Below, one piece after another: positions 18,314 to 63,518 of a DNA stretch of 64,000 nucleotides. Both the position numbers and the translations under genes were made by a program. This DNA is from Hyphomonas sp. (GTDB taxonomy: Bacteria > Pseudomonadota > Alphaproteobacteria > Caulobacterales > Hyphomonadaceae), in NCBI RefSeq assembly GCF_013823385.1, contig NZ_PNMA01000008.1:54609-118608 (forward strand), written 5' to 3'. Under the pieces are notes generated by a model, which saw nothing but the letters and a program-made list of their open reading frames with translations, did no database searches and had not been told where the DNA came from. The number at the start of each line of letters is the position of its first letter. Position 1 is the stretch's first letter.

Positions 18314-18323
18314 GCTGTTACCT

Positions 18324-18403
18324 CCGCTCATCCCCGCGAAGGCGGGGATCTCGCAAGGTTCATCCAAGCCTCCCCAGATCCCCGCCTTCGCGGGGATGAG
18401 CGG
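18324..18403. repeat. Perfect 28-bp inverted repeat between convergent genes
   Basis: Arms at 18324-18351 and 18376-18403 are perfect reverse complements (CCGCTCATCCCCGCG... against ...CGCGGGGATGAGCGG), with a 24-base spacer. Each arm is itself palindromic (ATCCCCGC-GAAG-GCGGGGAT). A related, interrupted copy occurs at 63418-63518. It could fold into a large hairpin terminating both flanking convergent genes. Confidence 0.85.
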
Positions 18404-18411
18404 ATGGAAGT

Positions 18412-23970: not shown

Positions 23971-24006
23971 GCGCGGCTGAGAGGGCCGGGAAAGAGCCGA
24001 TAACTG

Positions 24007-24043
24007 CCCCACCCCAACCCTCCCCACAGTCGTGGGGAGGGGG
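24007..24043. repeat. 37-bp palindromic GC-rich repeat
   Basis: CCCCACCCCAACCCTCCCC ... GGGGAGGGGG. The same unit, with only two base changes in the centre, appears twice in inverted orientation at 63201-63237 and 63284-63320, so it is a dispersed repeat family. Confidence 0.8.
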
Positions 24044-24164
24044 CATGTTGTGCGTGGGGAGAGGGGTTCTGGCGGCCGGGCGCAGCCGTTTTGGCCCGAG
24101 AGGCGGGGCCTTCGGGGGATTTGGGCTGGAGTGCAGGCGGTCCCGGCGCAATGACGCTGCGCGT

Positions 24165-24259
24165 TTTGGCCGGGATGTCCCGGCTCAATCGGCGGCTTTG
24201 CCGCCTTTGGCCGGGATGTCCCGGCTCAATCGGCAGCTTTGCTGCCTTTGGCCGGGATG
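24165..24259. repeat. 41-bp tandem repeat, 2.3 copies
   Basis: Units at 24165-24205 and 24206-24246 differ by two bases (GGCGGCTTTGCCGCC versus GGCAGCTTTGCTGCC, a compensatory change that keeps the hairpin); a 13-base partial third copy follows. Each unit holds two small palindromes, GCCGGGATGTCCCGGC and the one above. The rest of the 294-base gap 23971-24264 shows only the 37-bp repeat and no gene. Confidence 0.85.
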
Positions 24260-25168: not shown

Positions 25169-25903
25169 ATGCTTGCCCCGCGTAATGATCTCCCCTCCCT
25201 GAAACATCGCTTTGACCAGACCGGCCGCGTGCTGGTGCCGGACATATTCGAGCCGGACTTTGCCAGATCGGTGCTGGAGACGGCCCGGCAGCATGATGGC
25301 TGGCTGCTGGTGACGCGCATTCAGGGGCAGCACCGCGAGTTTGACGCCGCGCAGATGGCCGCCCTGCCCGCCGAGCGGCTGGCGCCGTTTGAAGAGCTGG
25401 TGGCGGCCGAGGCACGGGCGGGCTTCCAGTACCGGTTTGAACGCCACCTGCTGTATGACAATCTGCGGGCCGGAAAGCTGCCGGACGGGCCGTTGCGGCA
25501 GATGGCCGAGACGCTGAATTCGGAAGCCTTCATCGCCCTGCTGCATGACATCATGGGGGCCGATCATGTGCCGGGAGAGACCTTCTGTGACGGGCAGCTG
25601 ACGCGCTACCGGGCCGGGCATTTCCTGACCTCGCATGATGACGAATTGCCGGAATTCCGGCGGATTGCCGCCTTCGTGGCAAACCTGACGCCGGACTGGA
25701 ATGCCGATATGGGCGGCCTGCTGATGTTTACCGGCCAGGACGGGCATGTGCAGGAGGCGTTCACGCCGATGTTCAACACCCTCTCCTTCTTCAAGGTGCC
25801 CCAGCAGCATGCGGTGAGCGCGGTGGCGCCCTTCGCCAGGGGCACGCGGCAGGCGGTGACGGGGTGGCTGCGCAAGGGGCCGCCGCCCGCCCCTACCCCA
25901 TAG
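25169..25903 (+). CDS. 2OG-Fe(II) oxygenase, prolyl-hydroxylase-like
   Basis: A 244-residue iron/2-oxoglutarate dioxygenase. The facial triad is visible: HDD in FLTSHDDELPEF (H-x-D), the distal His in FKVPQQHAVSAV, and the 2-oxoglutarate-binding Arg in RGTRQAVTGW. The TRYRAGHFL..H and GGLLMF segments match Tpa1/OGFOD-like prolyl hydroxylases. The target protein or small molecule is unknown. Start at 25169 is the first ATG giving a family-like N-terminus. Its last 11 bases overlap the convergent helicase gene. Confidence 0.8.
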   Translation: MLAPRNDLPSLKHRFDQTGRVLVPDIFEPDFARSVLETARQHDGWLLVTRIQGQHREFDAAQMAALPAERLAPFEELVAAEARAGFQYRFERHLLYDNLRAGKLPDGPLRQMAETLNSEAFIALLHDIMGADHVPGETFCDGQLTRYRAGHFLTSHDDELPEFRRIAAFVANLTPDWNADMGGLLMFTGQDGHVQEAFTPMFNTLSFFKVPQQHAVSAVAPFARGTRQAVTGWLRKGPPPAPTP

Positions 25904-28682
25904 CATCCCGCACGAGGTCTTCTTCGGCTTCGCGCAGGATGGCTTCCATGGCGGAGGCGCCGAAGACGGGTTCGCGGCCGACTTCGAGCATCACGGGCAC
26001 GGCGAAGGGGCTGATCTTTGCGAGCGGCTTGTGGACGATGTGGCCGTGGATGCGGGCGAGCATGCCGGAGAGGCGGCGGACGTCCAGCAGGCCGGTGGCG
26101 GCGTCGGCGCGGGTGGCCTCAAGGAGGATGTGGCCGGGTTCGTGGCTGCGCAGGACATCGAAGATGAGGTCTGTCGAGAAGGTGACCTGGCGGGAGTTTT
26201 TCTCCGACCCCGGAAGGTTGCGGTGGATGAGGCCGGAGATCTGGGCGCAATGGGCAAAGGTGCGCTTCATCAGGGCGCTTTCGTCGAGCCATTCTTCCAG
26301 ATCATCGCCCAGCATATCCGGGTGGAAGATCGCGTCCATGTCGAGGCCGCGCATGTCCTCCATGCCCCAGACGGCCATGGCGTATTCGCTGGCGACGAAG
26401 CCGGTGGGCTTTGCGCCGGCGCGCTCGAGCCGGCGGGTGACGAGCATGCCGAGGGTCTGATGGGCCAGGCGCCCCTCGAAGGGATAGGAGACGAGATAGT
26501 GCCGGTCGGCGCGCGGGAATGTTTCCACGAGCAGATGATCCGGCGGCGGAATGGCTGAGCGCAGCGCCTGGATTTCGAACCACTCACGCACGGGGTCCGG
26601 CAGGTGTTTCCATTCGTCCGGATTGTGGATCATGTGGCGGACACGGTCTGCCAGGAAGGTGCTCAGCGGAAACTTGCCGCCATTATAGGTCGGGATGGCG
26701 GGGCTCTCCGCCTCGGCGCGGACGCAGAGGGCGTCCATGCCGTCAATGCCCAGCAGGCGGAGGATTTCGCCGGCAAAGAGGAAGGTGTCGCCGGGGGTGA
26801 GGAGGCTCAGGAAGTATTCTTCCATTTCGCCGAGTTTGCGGCCGGCTCGGAGGGCGCGGCGGGTCTCTCCTCCCCCGCCTGCGGGGGAGGTGCCCGAAGG
26901 GCGGAGGGGGGAAGCGGCAGTACGCTGGGCTCCCCCCTCCGACCGCTTCGCGGCCACCTCCCCCGCAGGCGGGGGAGGAGAAGGTTGCGCTGCGCCTCGC
27001 CCCGCGAAACTTGCCAGGCGGACATTGAGCATTGGCGCCTCGACGATGGCGCCGACATTCATGCGGTGGGCCTGTTTGTCTCTTGGAGTTCGGGCGACCC
27101 AGAGGCCGTCGGCGCGGCGCACGATGCGGTGGAAGCGGTCATAGGTTTTGAGGGCGTAGCCGCCGGTGGCGACGAAATCGACGAGGCGTTCATAGGTTTC
27201 CCAGTCGAGGGACGCGTAGGGCTGGGCCTGGCGGATTTCGTCGTAAAGGGCGGGCAGATGGAAGCCTTCGCCGCAGGCGCGGCCCATGACATGCTGGGCG
27301 AGAATGTCGAGCGCGCCACTGCGCGGGCCTTCGCCGTCAATCTCCCCGGCTTCGACGGCGGCTTCAGCAGCGCGGCATTCGAGGACTTCGAAACGGTTTG
27401 TCGGTACAAGGATGGCCTTGGAGGCTTCGTCCATACGGTGGTTGGAGCGGCCGATGCGCTGGATGAGGCGGGCGGCGCCCTTGGGGGCGCCCATCTGGAT
27501 GACAAGATCGACCTCGCCCCAGTCGATGCCGAGATCGAGGGTGGAAGTGCAGACCACCGCCTTGAGTTGGCCCGCAGCCATGGCGGCTTCGACGCGCTCG
27601 CGCTGGTCGCGGGCAAGCGAGCCGTGATGGAGCGCGATGGGGAGGCCGTCCTCGTTCGCTGCCCAGAGCTCCTGGAAAAGCAGCTCGGCCTGGCTGCGCG
27701 TGTTGACGAAGACGAGCGTCATCGTGGCGTCGCGGATGGCTTCGTAGACTTCGCCGACGGCGAAGCGGCCGGAATGGCCCGACCATGGGATGCGCTCGCG
27801 GGAGACGAGGATGGAGATGTCGGGGGAGAGGGCGGTGGGGGTTTGTATTATTCGTACACGGCTTTCTTCTCCTCCCCCGTTTACGGGGGAGGTGCCCGAA
27901 GGGCGGAGGGGGGAAGCGGCAGTATGCGGGGCTCCCCCCTCCGTCGCCTTTGGCGCCACCTCCCCCGTGAACGGGGGAGGAGAAGAGGGTTGTTCTGCGG
28001 GGCGGCGGACGTTGAGCCAGCCCGCAAGCTGCTCTGGATCGCGCACGGTGGCGGAGAGGCCGAGGAAGCGGCAGGTGGGGGACCAGGTTGCCAGCGTGGC
28101 GAGGCCGAGGGCGAGGAGGTCGCCGCGTTTCGACGGGGCGATGGCGTGGATCTCGTCGATGATCACGCATTTGAGGTCGGCGAAGAAGCTGGCGGCGTGA
28201 TCGGAGGCGATCAGGAGGGCGAGCTGTTCAGGGGTTGTCAGGAGGATGTCGGGCGGGGTCTTGCGCTGGCGCTGGCGGACATGGGGGGGCGTGTCGCCGG
28301 TGCGGGTTTCGATACGGATGGGCAGGGCCATCTCGGACACCGGCGTCATGAGATTGCGCTGAACGTCGGCGGCGAGCGCCTTGAGGGGGGAGATGTAGAG
28401 GGTGTGCAAAGCCGGACGCGGGGCTCCCCCCTCCGTCGCCTTCGGCGCCACCTCCCCCGCAGGCGGGGGAGGAGAAGAAGGGTTGCTGAGTTCGATCAAG
28501 GTGCCGAGGAAGCCGGCGAGGGTTTTGCCGCCGCCGGTGGGGGCGATGAGGAGGGCGCTGGCGCCGGACAGCGACGCCTCTGCCAGGGCAAGCTGATGCG
28601 GGCGGGGCGACCAGCCGCGCGCGGCAAACCACGCCTCGAAGGCGGGCGGCAGGCGGAAGGAAGGCGGGGCAGTGTCGGCCAT
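25893..28682 (-). CDS. Ligase-associated DEXH-box DNA helicase (Lhr-like), with three repeat-derived inserts
   Basis: A 929-residue superfamily 2 helicase. Walker A APTGGGKT (47-54), motif Ia YISPLKALAAD, DEXH box IIDEIHAI, SAT motif LGLSATVRDP and motif VI QRIGRSNHR, followed by the Lhr-type C-terminal domains. This helicase acts in DNA-damage response with PdeM and an ATP-dependent ligase. It is about 100 residues longer than I expect for the family, and the excess is three low-complexity inserts at residues ~68-88, ~232-272 and ~567-606, each reading PPP..GEVA.K.[TS]EGGA and each encoded by a copy of a palindromic repeat. All keep the frame and leave motifs intact, so the enzyme is probably functional. 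Start 28682 gives MADTAPPSF. Confidence 0.9.
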   Translation of the reverse strand: MADTAPPSFRLPPAFEAWFAARGWSPRPHQLALAEASLSGASALLIAPTGGGKTLAGFLGTLIELSNPSSPPPPAGEVAPKATEGGAPRPALHTLYISPLKALAADVQRNLMTPVSEMALPIRIETRTGDTPPHVRQRQRKTPPDILLTTPEQLALLIASDHAASFFADLKCVIIDEIHAIAPSKRGDLLALGLATLATWSPTCRFLGLSATVRDPEQLAGWLNVRRPAEQPSSPPPFTGEVAPKATEGGAPHTAASPLRPSGTSPVNGGGEESRVRIIQTPTALSPDISILVSRERIPWSGHSGRFAVGEVYEAIRDATMTLVFVNTRSQAELLFQELWAANEDGLPIALHHGSLARDQRERVEAAMAAGQLKAVVCTSTLDLGIDWGEVDLVIQMGAPKGAARLIQRIGRSNHRMDEASKAILVPTNRFEVLECRAAEAAVEAGEIDGEGPRSGALDILAQHVMGRACGEGFHLPALYDEIRQAQPYASLDWETYERLVDFVATGGYALKTYDRFHRIVRRADGLWVARTPRDKQAHRMNVGAIVEAPMLNVRLASFAGRGAAQPSPPPPAGEVAAKRSEGGAQRTAASPLRPSGTSPAGGGGETRRALRAGRKLGEMEEYFLSLLTPGDTFLFAGEILRLLGIDGMDALCVRAEAESPAIPTYNGGKFPLSTFLADRVRHMIHNPDEWKHLPDPVREWFEIQALRSAIPPPDHLLVETFPRADRHYLVSYPFEGRLAHQTLGMLVTRRLERAGAKPTGFVASEYAMAVWGMEDMRGLDMDAIFHPDMLGDDLEEWLDESALMKRTFAHCAQISGLIHRNLPGSEKNSRQVTFSTDLIFDVLRSHEPGHILLEATRADAATGLLDVRRLSGMLARIHGHIVHKPLAKISPFAVPVMLEVGREPVFGASAMEAILREAEEDLVRDAMG
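26866..26983 (-). repeat. Palindromic repeat in helicase gene, copy C (full)
   Basis: A ~118-bp inverted repeat: outer arms CTCCTCCCCCGCCTGCGGGG (from 26867) and, at 26957-26981, the inverse ending CGGGGGAGGAG. Encodes residues ~567-606 of the helicase, in frame. The element also carries the internal GGGCGGAGGGGGG / TCCCCCCTCC pairing. Confidence 0.85.
27868..27988 (-). repeat. Palindromic repeat in helicase gene, copy B (full)
   Basis: The same ~120-bp element as copy C with arms CTCCCCCGTTTACGGGGGAG and CTCCCCCGTGAACGGGGGAG. The TTTACG/GTGAAC change in both arms shows the copy diverged as a unit. Encodes helicase residues ~232-272 in the same frame and orientation. Confidence 0.85.
28421..28481 (-). 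repeat. Palindromic repeat in helicase gene, copy A (half)
   Basis: About 60 bp matching one half of copies B and C (GGGCTCCCCCCTCCGTCGCC then CTCCCCCGCAGGCGGGGGAG). Encodes helicase residues ~68-88 between motifs I and Ia, in the same frame as the other two. Confidence 0.8.
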
Positions 28683-28783
28683 GGCGAAGATTAAACTAGG
28701 GCAAGGCGCGGCGTCTGGCTCTTTCATTTTGCGGCGGAAAGGAAGAAGTTGCATTCGCCCTGCAAAATCGATGGAGCCTGCCG

Positions 28784-63200: not shown

Positions 63201-63320
63201 CCCCACCCCAACCCTCCCCATAGTCATGGGGAGGGGGCCTGTTGCTCTGTGGGACAAGCAGACCTCTCCAATGCCACGAGTTGCCCCCTCCCCATGACTA
63301 TGGGGAGGGTTGGGGTGGGG
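63201..63320. repeat. Inverted pair of the 37-bp repeat
   Basis: CCCCACCCCAACCCTCCCC... (63201-63237) and its exact reverse complement (63284-63320) flank a 46-base loop. A third copy is at 24007-24043. Confidence 0.85.
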
Positions 63321-63417
63321 CTCAGCGAGGACAAGCACGCCCCCTATCCAACACCTCCCACCTCTCCCCCATGTCATCCCGGCGAAAGCCGGGACCCAGA
63401 CTCCCCTCTCCCAACCC

Positions 63418-63518
63418 CCGCTCACCCCCGCGCAGGCGGGGGTCTCGGGCGGGTGTGCGCCGCCTTGCGAGATCCCCGCCCTCATCCTGAGCTTGCCGAA
63501 GGGCGCGGGGATGAGCGG
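63418..63518. repeat. Nested palindromic repeats
   Basis: A CCGCTCAcCCCCGCG-type arm (63418-63446) pairs with a second arm (63468-63480 plus 63503-63518) that is split by a 22-base unit CTCATCCTGAGCTTGCCGAAGG (63481-63502). That unit belongs to the family at 12143. A separate TCATCCCGGCGAAAGCCGGGA hairpin lies at 63374-63394. Confidence 0.75.

Follow-up and report, generated by a model that had tools for sequence, protein, structure and literature searches.

The gene for a ligase-associated helicase in a Hyphomonas species contains three in-frame copies of one GC-rich palindromic element, which raises the question of how repeats that elsewhere lie between genes came to occupy a DNA repair gene, and what keeps them there. 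The gene is a single open frame within the window, the 64,000-nucleotide stretch of DNA that was analysed, and encodes 953 residues when counted from the first ATG (Table 1). The likely start is residue 25 in this count and gives the same 929-aa product as in P0001. This product scores 1049.7 bits against TIGR04121, above the curated equivalog cut-off of 850 bits, and its Pfam and NCBIfam domains are complete despite the inserts, as had been noted of the helicase motifs from the sequence. Structure searches return a known fold, with the Lhr protein of M. smegmatis (5v9x) as the top Foldseek match of the helicase model (E 5.1e-41). Open frames span 830-849 aa in insert-free relatives within the genus, and the loops termed S1, S2 and S3 exceed the median length by 14, 42 and 37 aa, respectively; the sum, 93 aa, agrees with the original estimate of an excess of about 100 residues, roughly that of the inserts taken together. 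The partner ATP-dependent ligase (TIGR04120, 710.1 bits) is encoded outside the window (C3:131829-133388) and is not enlarged, given its open frame of 530 aa compared to 526 for the model.

Table 1. Features of the helicase gene in window coordinates, with residues numbered in the 953-aa count.
Feature	Position	Strand	Remarks
Ligase-associated DNA damage response DEXH box helicase (Lhr-type, TIGR04121)	25893..28754	-	likely start 28682 (MADT...), 929 aa; TIGR04121, Foldseek
Loop S1, residues 90-113, half element A	28416..28487	-	one arm ~28416-28477; encodes SNPSSPPPPAGEVAPKATEGGAPR
Loop S2, residues 251-301, linker between two RecA-like domains	27852..28004	-	full element B 27866-27985
Loop S3, residues 588-629, turn joining two long strands	26866..26993	-	full element C 26866-26983
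Hairpin 1, one arm of element B, CCTCCCCCGTTTACGGGGGAGG	27871..27892	.
Hairpin 1, other (inverted) arm of element B	27959..27980	.

The half copy (A) and the two full copies (B and C) add about 93 residues, and correspond to residues 66-89, 227-277 and 564-605 in the 929-aa count, close to where they had been placed at the outset. Copies B and C are 87% identical across 118 nt, the full length of C. The left arm of all three is read in one frame (PPPxxGEV), which bears out the common reading frame first noted, and at S1 the original loop codons have been lost. Among the helicases of the genus, open frames continue through the inserts, with the stops listed for some rows (e.g. G034 and G036) lying upstream of the likely start where this is visible; translation of the inserts is predicted from sequence.

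The 4.18-Mb genome contains 30 instances of the perfect palindrome CCTCCCCC-N(4-10)-GGGGGAGG and none of its reversed (non-complemented) control, which is more than chance would provide, and five of the 30 fall in the helicase gene, which spans only 2.9 kb. A genome-wide comparison of coding and intergenic copies by BLAST found 24 stretches outside the helicase, 23 of which overlap no predicted gene while one touches a predicted start. The intergenic arms are 43-58 nt in length with two hairpins each, and occur singly or as inverted pairs, in the manner of REP-like palindromes. They stand apart from the GTAG/CGTC REP superfamilies, as the tag (in either strand's spelling) lies within 8 nt 5' of the arm in only 2 of 80 cases and within 8 nt 3' of it in 1 of 80. 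Mobilisation by a REP-associated tyrosine transposase (RAYT; PF01797) was rejected, since PF01797 has no match in this genome (G000). Across the genus, PF01797 has matches at E 1e-3 in 9 of 42 genomes (four over the cut-off), including the palindrome-free G032 and G064 and none of the palindrome-richest G000, G022 and G002. The arms are inverted repeats, with no target-site duplication evident by eye in their flanks; no parent transposon was identified, and a search for in-frame copies on plasmids gave no match to the insert peptide. Also rejected was a special openness of the element to translation: whichever frame is read, 85-95% of the 62 distinct intergenic arms lack a stop, about the proportion seen among shuffled arms, so that the open frames are attributable to GC content.

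Alignment of the helicase with its relatives (225 proteins, duplicates included and those of 600 aa or less left out) revealed insertions of at least 12 aa over the median at three places only, namely S1 (20 rows), S2 (72 rows) and S3 (41 rows). In many Hyphomonas species these loops are occupied by several palindrome families, an observation that had no part in the original prediction. A tree was built of 139 non-redundant tips, with proteins dropped when they filled less than 93% of the core columns or matched a retained one at 98.5% identity or more; loops were counted as filled above 18, 20 and 22 aa for S1, S2 and S3 (so that the 22-aa S2 of G049 is included), and insert families were assigned by author-defined peptide patterns. 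Occupation recurs on this tree, with minimum presence/absence changes for S1, S2 and S3 of 11, 19 and 7 by FastTree and 11, 19 and 6 by IQ-TREE, and with 14, 36-37 and 16-17 changes of insert family. Of the 11 changes at S1, those of G000, G022 and P0003 may go back to a single event, and another involves the non-palindromic insert of L145. Gains and losses are not separable for certain, and we infer the direction of each change; with losses made three times cheaper than gains, S2 requires only 0-1 gains. In more distant homologues the loops are mostly short: 3 of 48 class homologues, comprising all those over the cut-off, carry a loop that exceeds the median by 12 aa or more (36 aa at S2, a tandem repeat; 43 aa at S2; 19 aa at S3), and by eye none is palindromic. 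The 30 best-scoring of these loci, a choice biased against inserts, have no long loops, and the other 18 have three. In the order sample of 24 genomes, 6 with only weak helicase matches were left out, and 3 of 18 homologues have a long loop, all at S2 and all in one other family. The S1 loop of Henriciella is partly tandem.

The palindrome is found at 181 sites in 26 genomes of the genus, of which 157 sites in 17 genomes, the first of them chosen partly for carrying helicase copies, were examined; the 24 sites left out, in nine genomes, include one in the helicase (G018). Among these 157 perfect palindromes, 22 are in the helicase and 135 elsewhere. By a codon-usage gene caller of our own, none of the 135 is enclosed in a gene that shows coding signal on each side of the palindrome, and nine reach the margin of a predicted gene or of a weak ORF; because the both-sides test also fails for nested helicase copies (L259 and five of six family IV copies), the safer wording is that 126 of 135 overlap no predicted gene. 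The one coding site with a long gene that had seemed to lie outside the helicase (L211) is in that genome's own helicase, and one of three helicase sites of G002 is on a separate contig, in an N-terminal fragment that is probably a misassembly at the repeat. Two further palindrome families show the same pattern as family I. Family II has 52 matches, 22 of them without a locus, and 5 of the 30 fetched are in the helicase. The locus of one of the remaining 25 (L280) did not extend far enough to be classified; among the other 24, 20 overlap no predicted gene and 4 overlap only the 5' end of one. For family IV, 6 of 17 matches are in the helicase and the remaining 11 overlap no predicted gene. Within the sample, then, no copy is seen inside another gene, and the helicase gene is singled out.

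Copies outside the helicase are more numerous in the 11 genomes whose helicase carries a pattern palindrome than in the other 31 (Mann-Whitney p 2.7e-5). By rough arithmetic assuming a coding share of 87%, the helicase of these 11 genomes is ~35-fold denser in palindromes than intergenic DNA (22 sites in ~30 kb vs 116 in ~5.6 Mb), and across all 42 genomes ~27-fold denser (23 in ~109 kb vs 158 in ~20 Mb), where sites are not independent insertions, many being common by descent and a full element counting as two. Such an excess is poorly explained by tolerance alone, that is, by random insertion everywhere with survival in three loops only because these are disordered and exposed. Other genes have exposed loops too, yet none of the 135 outside palindromes meets the both-sides coding test. 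Tolerance would be consistent with the modelled disorder of the loops, with their acceptance of differing families and peptides, with the resemblance of some inserts to decayed linkers in the protein alignment (P0031, P0080 and P0086), and with the loops that are long for other reasons in the 3 of 48 class genomes, at S2 and S3, and in Henriciella at S1. On balance it is rather unlikely, and it is likely that either selection or targeted insertion keeps the palindromes in the helicase. Of the original suggestion that the element is tolerated as protein, an in-frame repeat in loops modelled as disordered stands, and simple tolerance is not supported.

The best explanation, to which a probability of about 0.48 is given, is that REP-like palindromes were captured many times, in frame, by the three loops of this one helicase, and that selection on the protein explains their retention. 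Whichever palindrome family abounds in a genome would provide the supply; palindromes that elsewhere lie between genes would enter S1-S3 on many separate occasions, and selection on the helicase, either for long flexible loops or unusually permissive of them, would keep them there as in no other gene seen. After capture, exchange of sequence between copies seems to continue, and some inserts probably erode until they are plain linkers. The enzyme presumably works with its inserts, and selection rather than targeted insertion would do the sorting; no direct sign of positive selection is seen in the inserts, which are short and exchange sequence.

An alternative is targeted insertion, or a landing pad, whereby resident loop palindromes would attract more by nesting or conversion, so that a small number of ancient insertions is refreshed time and again. 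In G022, loop S2 consists of half a family I element and, behind it, a complete family II element, with the frame preserved; S1 and S2 of G000 have a common second-hairpin variant (GCGCC-GAA/AAA-GGCG) absent from the 62 distinct intergenic arms listed; and S1 has the same right flank in G000 as in G022 but differs between them in both hairpins. Such targeting is nonetheless unlikely, because other hairpins do not lie significantly closer to intergenic copies than expected from background (9 of 51 vs 5 of 52 flanks, p 0.26), the flanks display no common target motif by eye, and the short loops of most class and order homologues require several first insertions.

The reading frames point to the protein level, though intergenic arms are mostly stop-free in every frame. 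With G053 set apart, the family I left arms in the helicase DNA examined are all in frame 0 (PPPxxGEV; 12 of 12), the right arms are in frame 1 in six of seven cases (TSPxxGGG), and the Arg-rich third frame is used by none of the 19 arms. Exceptions are S1 of G002 (left arm in frame 1, right arm in frame 0), P0089, P0117 and the mutated right arm of G014. In the AlphaFold model, stretches with pLDDT below 50 are all in inserts, besides the N-terminus and residues 929-939, and the captured palindromes are accordingly modelled as disordered Pro/Gly-rich linkers. The anticipated surface loops hold as regards predicted disorder; their position at the surface, away from the active sites, is plausible from the model.

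The families are palindromic, and the hairpins could instead act as nucleic acid in the helicase gene or its mRNA, for example in autoregulation, with the loops simply being where the protein bears them. In the covariation sample of all 47-nt arms (10 of 19 coding and 12 of 62 intergenic), three base pairs not used for copy selection (columns 10-13, 27-35 and 28-34) vary on both sides in 6 coding and 10 intergenic cells, a count reached by 0 of 500 shuffles in either set. The number of pairs altered on both sides is unremarkable, being as high in 40 of 500 coding and 139 of 500 intergenic shuffles, as is that of further pair types (40 of 500 and 340 of 500). Paired variants may also be imports from the genomic pool, or products of quasipalindrome correction. 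Together with the frame preference and the several S2 linkers that look, from the proteins, like eroded inserts, this makes a nucleic-acid function quite improbable. Collapse of intergenic copies into the gene during assembly, to which the breaks of drafts G002 and G029 in or beside the loops might point, was rejected as next to impossible, since in-frame inserts are found in the single-contig G015, G018, G019 and G061 and in many other assemblies.

What is new is a single-gene, three-loop, multi-family palindrome sink, traceable through a whole genus that has cultured members and that is not known to be intracellular; the palindromes of Rickettsia and Wolbachia and the REPs of repair genes were already known. 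As originally proposed, the element is comparable to the Rickettsia palindromic elements (RPEs), ~120-150 bp palindromes inserted in frame in an alphaproteobacterium and kept as protein (Ogata 2000, 2002, via PMC10969869). R. conorii has 44 RPE integrations, with nearly half of elements in ORFs, according to the available text of PMC10969869, and whereas RPEs are described there as spread over many unrelated genes, the Hyphomonas elements of several families occupy three fixed loops of one gene in the sample. Bacterial MITEs with in-frame fusions, small non-autonomous repeats likewise adding peptides to proteins, are outlined in the same source; the Hyphomonas element differs in having no identified parent transposon or target duplication. 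In Wolbachia, several in-frame regions like palindromic elements occur in each of three recombination genes, all different from this helicase (addA 3, addB 2, priA 2), and were dropped from alignments as hard to align (PMC4224334, in the portion available). No report of such elements in this bacterial group was found in the literature searched, as first supposed; a 2013 paper had, however, described REPs within the repair genes of different bacteria (PMC3733652). The accessible sections of that paper describe intragenic GTAG/CGTC REPs as often residing in genes for replication or repair (UvrABCD, RecBCD, DNA polymerase I, DnaE2), which are sometimes a species' only REP-carrying genes, with recB of two Xanthomonas species bearing one at about the same site, and judge a fortuitous origin hard to accept. 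The Hyphomonas repeats resemble these in lying inside a repair gene, and differ in lacking the tag and in using a ligase-associated helicase; three-loop recurrence followed over a genus, several families and density relative to intergenic DNA go beyond what those sections contain. No later explanation of the repair-gene bias was found in the papers examined. Conceivably, genes for DNA-opening or -processing enzymes (here an Lhr-type helicase; elsewhere addA, addB, priA, recB, uvrA and dnaE2) are a dedicated refuge, into whose fixed loops unrelated REP-like families are selectively drawn and kept because their presence alters how the enzyme handles palindromes, or because the enzyme's own machinery could not excise them without damaging the gene that encodes it, but this is improbable.

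That repeats can become protein linkers may bear on the origin of disordered loops. For the repair-gene bias, Hyphomonas offers a comparison set in which the same gene has zero to three filled loops and several repeat families, alongside empty relatives and matched intergenic copies; among the carriers is H. neptunium ATCC 15444 (P0019), with S2 filled.

The gene that carries the palindromes encodes a helicase whose domains are DEAD, Helicase_C, WH_Lhr and DEAD_assoc, and mycobacterial Lhr (5v9x) is its best match in structure. As the original prediction had it, the palindromic element (family I) lies within this gene in one and the same frame, as one half and two full copies, distributed over three loops (S1, S2 and S3). 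The inserts were also suggested to fall in surface loops, and an AlphaFold model of the helicase (mean pLDDT 78.6, pTM 0.79) drops below a pLDDT of 50 at the inserts (residues 94-97, 103-110, 264-297 and 586-632), as well as at an N-terminal extension (1-29) and near the C-terminus (929-939). In the model, S1 and S2 each lie between a helix and the following strand, with S2 forming the linker that joins two RecA-like domains, and S3 is a turn joining two long strands; from the general fold, we take all three faces to be exposed and remote from ATP and DNA. The partner ligase gene is located elsewhere in the genome, without enlargement, and an NCBIfam search of the four genes adjoining the helicase in the window gave no matches over the cut-off. 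On the opposite strand, an open frame of 696 aa covers all of the inserts and the greater part of the helicase gene, and is probably a by-product of GC-rich codon usage.

Positions of the helicase gene, the antisense frame and further repeats in the window
Feature	Position	Strand	Family
Ligase-associated DEXH helicase	25893-28754	-	TIGR04121
Antisense open frame	26604-28694	+	
Palindromic repeat, TCATCCCCGCGAAGGCGGGGAT core	18318-18409; 63418-63483		
GC-rich repeat, CCCCACCCCAACCCTCCCCA...	24006-24064; 63201-63321		
Tandem pair, TTTGGCCGGGATGTCCCGGC...	24165-24246		

Enlargement of this protein is confined to the three loops. Among 225 aligned proteins (duplicates included), insertions at least 12 residues above the median occur in 20 rows at S1, 72 at S2 and 41 at S3, with none elsewhere between the anchors. 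The non-redundant set of 139 proteins has 16, 53 and 22 filled loops, respectively (over 18, 20 and 22 aa), and all three are filled in six proteins; the 32 Hyphomonas genomes of this set comprise 21 with no filled loop, five with one, four with two and two with three, and filled loops are also present in some Henriciella proteins. Three of 18 order homologues have a long S2, all from one other family, while the 48 homologues from other parts of the class that pass the family cut-off include two with a long S2 (a 36 aa tandem repeat; 43 aa) and one with a long S3 (19 aa), and no palindromes were seen by eye in these three class loops. The S2 of L352, a locus of class genome G100, holds 36 aa of short tandem repeats and was lengthened by a non-palindrome route, and S1 of the Henriciella loci L120 and L124 has a different, partly tandem filling (LSPIHREGTRRSGDQT, with a near copy in L120). 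In P0031, P0080, P0084, P0086 and similar proteins, S2 linkers of ~29 aa resemble eroded former inserts, so palindromes may eventually turn into ordinary linkers.

A BLAST search of the whole genome with the element, a check put forward with the original prediction, located 27 stretches, three in the helicase and 24 elsewhere, 23 of the latter clear of predicted genes and one at a predicted start. The perfect-palindrome pattern of hairpin 1, which spans more than one palindrome type, has 30 sites in this genome (G000) and 181 across 26 of 42 Hyphomonas genomes; its reversed, not complemented, control has none in most genomes and one in four. All 138 sites of 11 genomes were examined, and 22 lie in the helicase (G000, 5; G019, 4; G002 and G022, 3 each; G024, 2; G034, G005, G061, G014 and G020, 1 each; G029, 0), with 8 of the 116 others touching a predicted 5' end or weak ORF. 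Six further genomes contribute 19 sites, none in the helicase and one near a predicted 5' end; a G011 site near a 5' end is 11 codons past a predicted start. Pooled over these 17 genomes, the helicase accounts for 22 of 157 sites, and not one of the remaining 135 is flanked on both sides by coding signal. This two-sided test is imperfect, as nested copies inside the helicase itself fail it. Among 24 sites outside the 157, one (G018) is within the helicase. Other palindromes are also present in this gene: family II gave 52 matches, of which 30 were fetched and five are helicase loci, and 24 classified non-helicase loci are either clear of predicted genes (20) or overlap only a 5' end (4); family IV has 17 copies, six of them helicase copies and 11 clear of predicted genes; and S2 of G005 and P0089 holds yet another type, known from sequence only. 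One of the three G002 helicase sites belongs to an N-terminal fragment on a separate contig, probably a misassembly. Draft assemblies break inside or beside the insert loops (G002 contigs C1/C2, loci L096 and L060; G029 contigs C213/C482, loci L087 and L095), and loop inserts are therefore probably under-counted in drafts.

By rough arithmetic on sites, which are not independent events, palindrome density in the helicase is 27-35 times the intergenic density, an excess that would not be expected if tolerance alone kept palindromes in this gene. Copies elsewhere are more numerous in the 11 genomes whose helicase holds a pattern palindrome than in the 31 without one (p 2.7e-5), and capture thus depends on supply. 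Because density exceeds the intergenic level and capture tracks supply, the favoured reading is that captured palindromes would be sorted by selection on the helicase protein. Its main rivals are tolerance and targeted insertion into the loops. Nesting or exchange is shown by an S2 in G022 composed of a half family I element and a family II element, and by a private variant common to S1 and S2 of G000, but clustering of copies near other hairpins is non-significant.

The reading frames bear on sorting by selection as well. With duplicates removed, family I left arms in the helicase DNA examined are in the PPPxxGEV frame in 12 of 12 cases and right arms in the TSPxxGGG frame in six of seven, with none of the 19 in the Arg-rich third frame, although shared descent makes the independent cases fewer than those counted. 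The right-arm exception is S1 of G002, where the left arm lies on the other contig and is likewise off-frame; the protein sequences of P0089 and P0117 repeat this exception, and a mutated right arm in G014 is apparently in the Arg-rich frame. Arms are mostly free of stops in every frame, yet a preference exists, which suggests sorting at the protein level.

On a core tree built without insert columns, the minimum presence changes are 11 (S1), 19 (S2) and 6-7 (S3), and insert-family changes 14, 36-37 and 16-17. Shuffled labels require more (means of 15, 43 and 21), and loop presence therefore also tracks descent. Rooted at equal costs, the tree gives 11 gains for S1, 12-15 gains and 4-7 losses for S2, and 4-5 gains and 2 losses for S3; a 3:1 cost against gain leaves 4-7, 0-1 and 3-4 gains, respectively. 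The S1 gains in G000, G022 and P0003 may be a single event, and that of L145 is not a palindrome.

An intergenic arm (43-58 nt) consists of hairpin 1, CCTCCCCCG-NNNN-CGGGGGAGG, a hairpin 2 of variable length with a loop that is often GAA, AAA or GCA, and a GGAGGGGG tail, and a full copy is two arms inverted relative to each other. Three base pairs that are independent of copy selection are changed on both sides in 6 cells for coding arms and 10 for intergenic arms (0/500 shuffles as high in each), counts open to inflation by shared descent; neither the number of pairs changed nor that of further pair types stood out against shuffles, and the outer pairs of hairpin 1, being built into the search pattern, are uninformative on pairing. 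Since the arms lack a GTAG/CGTC tag and a PF01797 search of the genome gave no match, the element is named REP-like rather than REP.

Published sources describe intragenic REPs in repair genes (PMC3733652), palindromic regions in Wolbachia addA, addB and priA (PMC4224334) and Rickettsia palindromic elements (reviewed in PMC10969869). H. jannaschiana is among the genomes for which REP counts are tabulated in PMC12306157, in passages that make no mention of genes. At the level of titles and abstracts, no publication on palindromes in Hyphomonas, on palindromes and ligase-associated/Lhr helicases, on in-frame palindromes in alphaproteobacteria or on intragenic REPs describes this helicase case.

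The window holds other repeats. The palindromic repeat with the TCATCCCCGCGAAGGCGGGGAT core also occurs as a distant inverted pair and resembles common alphaproteobacterial repeats. The GC-rich repeat is present in both orientations, 39 kb apart, and the tandem pair consists of 41-bp copies that are 95% identical.
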